Shown here piece after piece: positions 42,552-45,969 of a stretch of 52,025 bases of DNA. Origin of the DNA: an uncultured Nitratifractor sp. (lineage in GTDB: Bacteria > Campylobacterota > Campylobacteria > Campylobacterales > Sulfurovaceae); contig CAMZLH010000015.1 in NCBI GenBank assembly GCA_947311565.1, positions 1 to 52,025 of the forward strand, given 5' to 3'. A program made the translations under genes and the position numbers. The notes beneath the pieces are model-generated. The model was not told the DNA's origin, did not search any database, and worked only from the letters and a program-made list of their open reading frames with translations. Position 1 is the first letter of the stretch, and each line of letters starts with the position of its first letter.

Positions 42552-43220
42552 ATGAGAATATATACAAAAGCTTCCCTATTTATAGGAGCACTTTTAATAT
42601 TTAATGGATGTAATGTATACAGACAAAAGTTAGTTATGGAAGTACCTTATAATGGCAATGACTCTACTTTAGTTAGTGATGAAAATGAGAATAGTAATTT
42701 GGGTGATGTTGTTAACGAGACAATAAATGAGAGTAGTGAGCAGACATTTACCAATGAGAATGAAACCAATATATCAACAAAAAACACTACAGTTGTACAA
42801 AGAGTAGCTTTCCCTGTATCTGAGTATAATAGTTTAGCTACAACAGGTTCTGCTGCTGTTACAGGTAGTATATATATTAAGAGTGCATCTGGTAGTAGAG
42901 TTATTGGTAAAAATACACGATTATATCTAAACCCTGTAACTAGCTACTCTACACAGTGGTATTTAAAGAGTTACTTAGGTGGTGCTAAGATGTCAAAAGT
43001 TGATTCAAGGCTATTTAACTATCTAAAATTTACTACATCTAATAGTAGTGGCAATTTTGAGTTTTTAAATATACCAAGTGGCAGCTACTACCTTATAGGT
43101 GTTGTTAAGTGTGGAACAGCATGTGGCTATAGTAGCGTTAAGAATATAAGAATTGCTAAAAAAATATCTATCTTTGGAAGTGATACAAAGATGGTAGATT
43201 TAACAAAAAGTGTTAAATAA
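42552..43220 (+). CDS. lipoprotein with carboxypeptidase-regulatory-like (transthyretin-like) domain
   Basis: Function unknown. The signal peptide ends in a lipobox FNGC (Cys20). An Asn/Glu/Ser/Thr-rich, probably disordered stretch follows to about residue 90. The C-terminal part (about 100-222) starts TGSIYIKSASG and contains SNSSGNFEFLNIPSGSYYL, the pattern of beta-sandwich CarboxypepD_reg/TTR-like domains. Two close Cys in VVKCGTACGY may form a disulfide. A surface or periplasmic adhesion role is conceivable. TAGGAG precedes the ATG. Confidence 0.68.
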   Translation: MRIYTKASLFIGALLIFNGCNVYRQKLVMEVPYNGNDSTLVSDENENSNLGDVVNETINESSEQTFTNENETNISTKNTTVVQRVAFPVSEYNSLATTGSAAVTGSIYIKSASGSRVIGKNTRLYLNPVTSYSTQWYLKSYLGGAKMSKVDSRLFNYLKFTTSNSSGNFEFLNIPSGSYYLIGVVKCGTACGYSSVKNIRIAKKISIFGSDTKMVDLTKSVK

Positions 43221-43333: not shown

Positions 43334-45226
43334 ATGTTTGGTTTTTATAGAGTTGCCACAGTTGCACCCAAGTTGTTTTTAGCAAATCCACTTAAGAATG
43401 TAGATGAGATTATCTCTTCTTTAGAGAGTTGTGAAGATAAAAATGTATCTATTGCTAACTTTGGTGAACTTACACTAATAGGTTATAGTGTTGGAGATTT
43501 GATATTTAATACTTCTTTATTAAATGCGCAAGATTTAGCTCTTAAAAGTATATTAGAGTACTCTAGAAATGTAAATATTATCTTTACTATAGGTTATGCA
43601 CTAAAGTATAAAAGTAGATTATATAATACGGCATTAGTTATAAAAAATGGTGAAATATTAGGCGTTGTGCCTAAAACTTATATTCCAAACAAACAGGAGT
43701 TTTACGAAGCTAGATACTTTTCTAGTGGCAGAGATATTAAGAATGAAGTAGTAAATATTCTCTCTCAAGATGTACCTTTTGGCATTGATTTACTCTTTAG
43801 TGATAGTGATGTTTTAACTTTTGGTGTTGAGATATGTGAAGATCTTTGGGCGGTTACTCCACCTAGTAATATTTTAGCACAATCTGGTGCAAATCTTATT
43901 TTAAATTTAAGTGCTAGTAATGAAATTATTGGTAAAGATAGTTATAGAGTAAGTTTAGTAAGTTCACAAAGTGCAAGATTAATATGTGTATATGCATATG
44001 CTTCTAGCTCTCTTGGTGAGAGTGGAAGTGATACTATTTTTGGTGGTGATTTAATTATATCAGAGTATGGAACTATTTTAAAAAGAGATAAAAATTTAAC
44101 ATTTAATAGTAAGTTAATCTATGCTGATGTAGATATAAATAGAGTTTCTAATTTAAGAGTAAATGATAGCTCTTTTAACCAAAGCTCAATTAGTTTATGT
44201 AGGAGTATAGAGTTTAATAGTCTAAATAGACCAGCTAAGATAGATAGGTTTTATAATCCACATCCATTTATTCCTAATAGTGTAGATAGTATTAAGCAAA
44301 GAAGTGAAGAGATTACTAATATTCAAGCTTATGCATTAATTAGAAGAATGAGACAAGCTAATATTAAAAGAGCTCTTATTGGAATAAGTGGTGGGTTAGA
44401 TTCTACTTTAGCACTCTTATCTACACATAAAGCATTTATTGAGGCAAAGTGGGATATAAAAGATATTGTGGCTGTTACAATGCCTGGATTTGGAACAACG
44501 AGTAAAACACTAAGTAATGCAAAAGAGATTTGTAAAATTTTGGGTGTTACACTAAAAGAGATAGATATAAAAGAGTTAGCTACACAAGAGTTAAAAACGA
44601 TAGATCATGATCTAGAAACATACGATATTACTTATGAAAATACACAAGCTAGGTTAAGAACAGCAATACTTATGAATCTATCAAATAAGTTAAATGGTTT
44701 AGTGGTTGGTACAGGTGATTTAAGTGAAATTGCACTAGGATGGAGTACCTACAATGGAGATCATATGAGTATGTTTGGTCTAAATAGTGGTATACCTAAA
44801 ACATTAATTAAGTATCTAATTAGTTACTATGCAAAAGGCAACTTAGAAGTGCTATTAAAAGATATATTAGATACTCCAGTATCACCAGAGTTAATACCAG
44901 CAGTAGATGATAAGATAGTACAAGCTACAGAAGAGATAGTTGGACCATATGAACTACATGACTTCTTTTTATATCACTTTATACGAGATGGGTTTTCTCC
45001 TAAGAAGATATTTTATATTGCATCTTTAGCATTTAAAGATAAGTATAGTGATGACACAATTAAGAGATGGCTAAAACTATTTATTAAACGTTTTTTTACT
45101 CAACAATTTAAAAGAAATGCTATGCCAGATGGGGTAATGATTGGAACTGTATCTTTAAGTCCAAGAGCAAATTGGAGAATGCCAAGTGATTTATATTTTG
45201 ACTCTTTTTTAGAGGAGCTAAATTGA
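43334..45226 (+). CDS. nadE: glutamine-dependent NAD+ synthetase
   Basis: The last step of NAD synthesis. It has a two-domain protein: an N-terminal nitrilase-like glutaminase with Glu in ANFGELTLIGY, Lys in VVPKTYIPN and nucleophile Cys in FGVEICEDLW, then an NAD synthetase domain starting at about 340 with the pyrophosphate loop ISGGLDSTLAL and GTGDLSEIALGW. 630 residues is slightly short for the class but both domains are complete. AAAAAGG precedes the ATG. Its TGA overlaps the TTG of the next gene by 4 bases. Confidence 0.95.
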   Translation: MFGFYRVATVAPKLFLANPLKNVDEIISSLESCEDKNVSIANFGELTLIGYSVGDLIFNTSLLNAQDLALKSILEYSRNVNIIFTIGYALKYKSRLYNTALVIKNGEILGVVPKTYIPNKQEFYEARYFSSGRDIKNEVVNILSQDVPFGIDLLFSDSDVLTFGVEICEDLWAVTPPSNILAQSGANLILNLSASNEIIGKDSYRVSLVSSQSARLICVYAYASSSLGESGSDTIFGGDLIISEYGTILKRDKNLTFNSKLIYADVDINRVSNLRVNDSSFNQSSISLCRSIEFNSLNRPAKIDRFYNPHPFIPNSVDSIKQRSEEITNIQAYALIRRMRQANIKRALIGISGGLDSTLALLSTHKAFIEAKWDIKDIVAVTMPGFGTTSKTLSNAKEICKILGVTLKEIDIKELATQELKTIDHDLETYDITYENTQARLRTAILMNLSNKLNGLVVGTGDLSEIALGWSTYNGDHMSMFGLNSGIPKTLIKYLISYYAKGNLEVLLKDILDTPVSPELIPAVDDKIVQATEEIVGPYELHDFFLYHFIRDGFSPKKIFYIASLAFKDKYSDDTIKRWLKLFIKRFFTQQFKRNAMPDGVMIGTVSLSPRANWRMPSDLYFDSFLEELN

Positions 45227-45969
45227 AATTAACTCTACTCTTAGTTATACCTATATCTCTATTTGCTAAGGATCCAACAGGTCTAAGTAGATATAAAAAA
45301 ATAGTTGAGCATAGTATAGAAAAGAGTAGTGGTACTCAAAAAAAGATACTACAAAATGCCTTAAAGATGGTAGAGAGTAGAGTTATTATCAGAGGCTCTT
45401 GTTGGGACTATATAGATAGAGTATATAGAGAGTCTAATGCTAGTAAAGTAGATATATTTAGCTCTAAAAAGAGTGAATTATATGCAGATATAGATAAAAT
45501 AAAGCCAGCAGATTGGTTATATCATATAAACTACTCATATAAAAATATAGAGCATAGTGGATTGTTTATAGATTGGGTAGATAAGAATAAAACAGAAGCA
45601 GTAATGCTTAGCTATGCAGGAGAAAAAAAGCTCTTACCTGCAAGGTTTAGAGTCTATAATATTAAGAGTACATACAATATAGTTAGAGCTAAGGAGAAAG
45701 AGATGGATTATATATCTATAAAAGATTACGCGAGAGTCAATAAAATAAGCATATTTAATGCTATAAAGTTAGCTAAAAGTGGTAAGGTAGAGACAATTAC
45801 TAAAGATTTAAATGGTAAAGAGCATATATTTATTAAAAATGATAGTACTGTTTTGGTAGATAAAGAGCCAAATAGAGAACCAACTGTAAGAGAGTTAATG
45901 AAAGAGATAGAAAAATTAAAGAGTAGAGTTGATGAATTAGAGCGAAAAGTCTCTAAGGGTAATAAGTAA
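45223..45969 (+). CDS. exported Cys/His protein fused to an HTH-like segment and coiled coil
   Basis: Not recognised as a named family. Order: signal peptide (1-15, ending LFA); a helical part; a segment with GSCWDYIDRVY (Cys60), IKPADWLYHI (Asp97) and EHSGLFIDW (His111). The spacing and pattern recall the NlpC/P60 or CHAP papain-like core, in which PGD and HVGIY motifs follow the catalytic Cys. From 161 comes MDYISIKDYARVNKISIFNAIKLAKSGK, which looks like an excisionase-type helix-turn-helix, then a coiled coil (about 222-247). An internal ATG at 45703 has AAGGAG six bases ahead, so a separate 88-residue product is possible. TTG start with AGAGGAG upstream. Confidence 0.62.
   Translation: MKLTLLLVIPISLFAKDPTGLSRYKKIVEHSIEKSSGTQKKILQNALKMVESRVIIRGSCWDYIDRVYRESNASKVDIFSSKKSELYADIDKIKPADWLYHINYSYKNIEHSGLFIDWVDKNKTEAVMLSYAGEKKLLPARFRVYNIKSTYNIVRAKEKEMDYISIKDYARVNKISIFNAIKLAKSGKVETITKDLNGKEHIFIKNDSTVLVDKEPNREPTVRELMKEIEKLKSRVDELERKVSKGNK

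Follow-up and report, generated by a model that had tools for sequence, protein, structure and literature searches.

The open reading frame (ORF) described here is best explained as a stop-loss fusion of two adjacent genes whose locus still gives two products, a reading to which we assign a probability of about two in three. The chimera most likely formed when the stop codon between the neighbours was lost. Its two products are most likely an exported hydrolase extended by a C-terminal tail and a cytoplasmic helix-turn-helix (HTH) protein that is free of the hydrolase. The model is based on the existence of free homologues for each half, the unfused pairs of a sister genus, the shared register of the junction, the retained Shine-Dalgarno (SD) site and ATG of the second gene, and the conservation of both halves. 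The locus lies in the window, i.e., the whole stretch of 52,025 nucleotides that was analysed, which is one contig of G000, a draft genome of 1.69 Mb in 73 contigs. Named relatives (Sulfurovum, Nitratifractor, Campylobacterota bacterium) place it within or close to the Sulfurovum group of Campylobacterota.

43334–45226, + strand: nadE (NAD synthase), upstream neighbour of the fused ORF and the gene that C usually follows in the window's genus
45213–45217, + strand: AGGAG, SD-like site 5 nt 5' of the TTG, still inside the terminal part of nadE
45223–45969, + strand: fused ORF, 248 aa, TTG start (ORF list and sequence)
45223–45696, + strand: N-half, residues 1–158, predicted exported papain-like, NlpC/P60-CHAP-like domain (structure prediction, fold search, alignment)
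45703–45969, + strand: C-half, 88 aa, possible gene-within-gene, its ATG aligned with the starts of stand-alone homologues

The ORF is present as the first-pass annotation had described it, and the two-part layout holds as well, with the boundary shifted from residue 155 to about 158–160; residue 161 is an ATG which, in the alignment, coincides with the start of C where C is a stand-alone gene. The TTG overlaps the stop codon of nadE. Several genomes of the window's genus have a site similar to the AGGAG at the nadE end, where it stands ahead of a free C gene. No Pfam family was above the cut-off for the whole ORF, the N-half or the C-half, and neither half had a match above the cut-off in the NCBIfam and PHROGs searches. 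The frame is beyond chance, since separate searches returned a large homologue set for each half and comparison with the sister genome G002 gave pN/pS values of 0.43 (N-half) and 0.37 (C-half, 52 codons), with pS near saturation. Further upstream, the window contains a lipoprotein-like ORF of 222 aa (42552–43220) with LIFNGC near its N-terminus and no Pfam match at E 1.

The N-half opens with a signal-peptide-like segment, in line with the signal peptide of the first-pass annotation, and two of its invariant codons mark the putative active site.

45223–45270, + strand: signal-peptide-like segment, residues 1–16, without a lipobox Cys (read by eye from the sequence)
45400–45402, + strand: Cys60 codon, invariant, opening helix 60–70; catalytic Cys by analogy
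45553–45555, + strand: His111 codon, invariant, within strand 109–120; catalytic His by analogy

The lipobox Cys is present in many relatives of the N-half (the N-family) and absent in the window. AlphaFold2 modelled residues 1–160 from 10 sequences as a papain-like fold (pLDDT 89, pTM 0.83). The best Foldseek matches were CHAP and other papain-like endolysins, the best of them with an E of 2.7e-3 and a probability of 0.99, and none below 0.001. The top VIA rows were PlyC (Z 9.4, rmsd 2.6, 113 aligned residues), the Acd24020 autolysin (Z 9.2) and PlyGRCS (Z 9.1), followed by NlpC2, CwlO, MepS and similar proteins. The N profile had no match at E 1 among the sequences of solved structures.

In the papain-like NlpC/P60 fold, a helix begins with the catalytic Cys, the strand after it bears the His, and a polar residue (His, Asn or Gln) is the third member of the active site. 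The Cys60/Asp97/His111 pattern recognised earlier is borne out by an alignment of 24 diverse sequences, in which all three are invariant together with W61, W98, N103 and S112, and by the fold obtained from AlphaFold2 and VIA. Asp97 forms part of a G-D-W motif, and its role is probably a structural rather than a catalytic one. The strand after that of His111 carries S130 and Y131, and a conserved His, Asn or Gln was not found there in the 24-row alignment and the model. Moreover, PF00877 did not match the window, and the best relative reached 16.7 bits against a cut-off of 23. On account of this sub-threshold score and the third catalytic residue not being found, the N-half is classed as NlpC/P60-like and not as a member of that family. 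By analogy with the fold matches, its function is probably that of a peptidoglycan hydrolase. That peptidoglycan is the target of the N-family is hinted at independently by a Candidatus Campbellbacteria record (L105, 2884–3702), where an N-family domain is fused to a C-terminal PG_binding_1 domain (E 2.9e-14).

The N profile was found in 26 of 175 genomes of the window's taxonomic family and in 6 of 298 genomes of the class. A scan of named genomes yielded 109 N relatives; the best 80 of these come mostly from Psychrobacter, with others from Campylobacterota, Neisseriaceae, Thiomargarita and Bacteroidales. The coding sequence usually ends with the domain: among the collected loci there were 86 distinct N-domains, and in 81 of them the protein terminates no more than 5 residues from the domain end, the remaining five being those of the window, G002, L105 with its PG_binding_1 fusion, L005 (+32) and L112 (+13). 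The Psychrobacter loci (within L107–L175) place the N-family in dozens of genome records; the member examined, L119, had no Pfam family above the cut-off. Two N-family genes lie in tandem on one Bacteroidales contig (L112, 1–489 and 664–1266). A phage lysin origin of the N-family gains no support from a scan of viral contigs, which gave 22 pattern matches and no confirmed one. In a limited look at the literature on NlpC/P60 proteins in Psychrobacter and on peptidoglycan hydrolases with Sulfurovum, a description of the N-family was not found. Overall, the distribution points to an NlpC/P60-like exported family, still without a name, in Campylobacterota, Psychrobacter, Neisseriaceae and other groups.

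The C-half is predicted to combine a compact DNA-binding-type core with a long terminal helix.

45709–45837, + strand: winged HTH core, C residues 3–45 (model and fold search)
45886–45960, + strand: long C-terminal helix or coiled coil, C residues 62–86 (model and alignment)

AlphaFold2 modelled the last 88 residues from 36 sequences as a strand-helix-helix-hairpin followed by a long helix (pLDDT 85, pTM 0.50). For the 50-residue core, VIA listed Pukovnik Xis (Z 7.5, rmsd 2.5 over 50 residues), BldC (Z 7.0) and MerR-type domains, and Foldseek gave probabilities of 0.98 and 0.96 at an E of about 0.4–0.5. As the Z values are below 8, the winged-HTH assignment rests on the topology and on the consistency of the top rows. 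None of the HTH family profiles in Pfam and NCBIfam matched the window's C-half at E 1; for 12 C relatives, 25 of 45 Pfam matches were available. The best matches of the C-half among the sequences of solved structures, including designed peptides, reflect coiled-coil likeness and were rejected. The earlier guess of an excisionase-type HTH was a reasonable one, the model being an Xis/BldC-like winged HTH plus a long helix, and structure prediction for the two halves accordingly gave one papain-like and one HTH fold.

Elsewhere each half is a gene of its own. When the full protein was searched against 60 relatives, 22 matched, and a frame running across the junction through both halves without a stop was found only in the window and in G002. 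The C profile was detected in 93 of the 175 family genomes and 34 of the 298 class genomes, and the free C gene encodes 84–98 aa without an export signal. In the window's genus, it lies directly 3' of nadE in G003, G005, G006, G008, G009 and G011, where nadE was recognised by its likeness to the window's nadE (in G006 from 90 nt only); with the window counted, nadE is upstream in 7 of the 8 C-bearing genomes of the genus. The window keeps this nadE–C order with N in between, whereas G002 does not. The two genes are not obligate partners, since their co-occurrence is no better than chance: 13 of the 25 solid N-bearing genomes of the family also have C against 13.3 expected (a weak partial N match in G449, E 4e-4, was left out of this count). 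In genus g3, C is on another contig in all 8 N-bearing genomes.

The unfused arrangement is preserved in the sister genus g10, where N directly precedes C as a separate gene in all three N-bearing genomes (L038, L026 and L041). In two of these pairs the genes overlap as ATGA; the third, L038 (in G348), has a different junction, CGT CCC AAG GAG TGA AGC ATG GAA. The window reads AGA GCT AAG GAG AAA GAG ATG GAT in the same register, and what counts in comparing the two is the stop codon, present in L038 and missing in the window.

45691–45696, + strand: AAGGAG, internal SD-like site, 6 nt 5' of the ATG at 45703
45697–45702, + strand: AAA GAG, the codons standing where the unfused L038 locus has TGA AGC

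We infer that the stop was lost in the window's lineage, and not the reverse. The flank before C in g10 is common to L026, which has N, and L021, which does not (78–95% protein identity), so N comes and goes directly before C. In the tree, the five g1 and g10 rows fall on one side of a branch with a support of 19/0, and a single origin of the adjacency is neither shown nor rejected. The second fused locus, in G002 (apparently record JAADEQ010000011.1), likewise has no stop at the junction, although its codons there are not those of the window (RAK-GAIVRE-DYI), and has its internal start at the same place, a GTG after AAGGGG, which is weaker than an ATG. The G002 contig ends inside the C-half, its upstream neighbours differ from those of the window, and no convincing nadE match was found in this 82%-complete genome.

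Within the fused frame, the predicted ribosome-binding site and start of the second gene are intact (45691–45705). Among the 297 internal in-frame ATGs in the 46 long ORFs of the window, 11 have any of the tested SD cores upstream, and a single one, the ATG at 45703, has AAGGAG at a distance of 4–9 nt. The RNA structure at this site is not unusual (z 0.70). The starts of the free C genes, to which the ATG aligns, were picked by script near the expected place, and several of these frames are open just a few codons further upstream. The pN/pS of the C-half is 0.35–0.39 against four free relatives, in comparison with 0.30–0.33 among three of those relatives, and its end branch is 0.37; by these measures the C-half evolves about like its free relatives. 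A second C gene was not found in G000. Continued internal initiation is favoured, rather than shown, by the aligned start, the unique AAGGAG, the lack of strong structure, the G002 GTG, the constraint on C and the failure to find another C gene.

The proposed course of events begins with an adjacent pair, an exported papain-like gene followed by a winged-HTH/coiled-coil gene of 84–98 aa, with the SD of the second located in the final codons of its predecessor. The genes would then have been joined when the in-frame stop was lost. Initiation at the TTG (45223) would give the exported hydrolase with a tail of 88 residues, while initiation or re-initiation at the ATG (45703) would give the free cytoplasmic HTH protein, which would act like its stand-alone relatives and most likely bind DNA as a coiled-coil dimer.

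The first-pass annotation had suggested that one half may have been repurposed, perhaps for a role outside the cell. This is not the simplest reading: elsewhere the HTH half is free and without an export signal, here it keeps its own SD and ATG, and the g10 relatives with both as neighbouring separate genes weaken the claim further. Export is probably not required for the HTH half to function, and an exported, repurposed DNA-binder is possible but not needed. A full-length chain that stays stable after export would bring the HTH half into the periplasm, where it may have a use. In its strict form, a true exported chimera made as the full-length chain only, in which the HTH/coiled coil would dimerise the hydrolase or bind DNA or protein outside the cytoplasm, we hold this explanation to be unlikely. 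It would account for the uninterrupted frame between the halves in two genomes whose junction codons differ, for the conservation of both halves behind an export signal read by eye, and for the G002 fusion standing in another neighbourhood. However, the SD and ATG are kept where stand-alone relatives start; the constraint on the C-half resembles that of free proteins; and, as no second C was found in G000, the cell would have to do without what the free protein normally does. Certain observations do count against the two-product model, namely the weaker G002 GTG, the G002 contig ending inside the C-half, the differing G002 neighbours without a convincing nadE, the chance-level co-occurrence of N and C, the g3 layout and the departures in the N-half.

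These departures bring in the idea of decay in progress, by which the N-half would be dispensable, the fusion a neutral step towards loss of the hydrolase, and the C product alone of importance. Of 29 near-invariant positions, 4 (72, 85, 96 and 142) are changed in the window's N-half, the highest number of the 24 rows, with an end branch of 0.63 compared with 0.28 for G002, so that it may be drifting, and the presence or absence of N directly before C among relatives fits the same idea. Yet the invariant columns, Cys60 and His111 among them, are all kept, the pN/pS to G002 is 0.43, neither the SD ahead of the TTG nor the signal-peptide-like segment is damaged, and a frameshift is absent; we consider decay to be quite improbable. 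A sequencing or assembly error that removed the stop codon is conceivable in a draft of 73 contigs, where the stop codon separates the window from the unfused G348 layout, but G002, a second assembled genome, is also open with other junction codons, which makes such an error very improbable indeed. Returning to the stop-loss fusion with two products, one doubtful extension, for which we would give long odds, is a division of labour in one frame between two compartments: the HTH/coiled coil would be a cytoplasmic regulator and, as the hydrolase tail, would dimerise or place the enzyme, the arrangement being kept by dose coupling. If true, a two-gene unit has been caught becoming a two-compartment gene, with the dose of the hydrolase tied to that of its regulator.

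The surprise of an apparently exported HTH protein is mostly explained by the stop-loss fusion, which makes the locus a neat case and not a new kind of protein. It is a readable example of a stop lost between adjacent genes with the start signals of the second gene staying in place, and the unfused, fused and first-gene-less states are all found among related genomes. For annotators, it is a warning not to take such an ORF for one exported DNA-binding protein.

The N-half shares with the NlpC/P60 and CHAP hydrolases (PlyC, Acd24020, PlyGRCS, MepS/Spr) the papain-like fold and export, with the Cys at a helix N-terminus, the His in the next long strand and G-D-W before a strand; it differs in the N-family's own signature around RG[SA]CWDY and GDW[LI]Y. 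Similarly, the C-half has the two helices followed by a beta hairpin of the minimal winged HTH proteins Xis and BldC (MerR superfamily), but it carries a C-terminal coiled coil and is coded behind nadE in the window's genus. Among gene-within-gene systems, Cas11b is reportedly an in-frame product of internal initiation. The pIGRK plasmid codes for two in-frame Rep proteins, RepR and RepR' (PMC6854812), and the Salmonella N-terminal proteoforms are bacterial cases of in-frame internal starts which may change the protein location (PMC11005335). The fused locus resembles such systems in having one frame, an in-frame internal start and a shorter product, which in some known cases occupies another location, as is proposed here. 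In contrast to them, the predicted products of the fused locus are unrelated domains for two compartments, the short one being predicted only, and a sister genus still has the two genes unfused.
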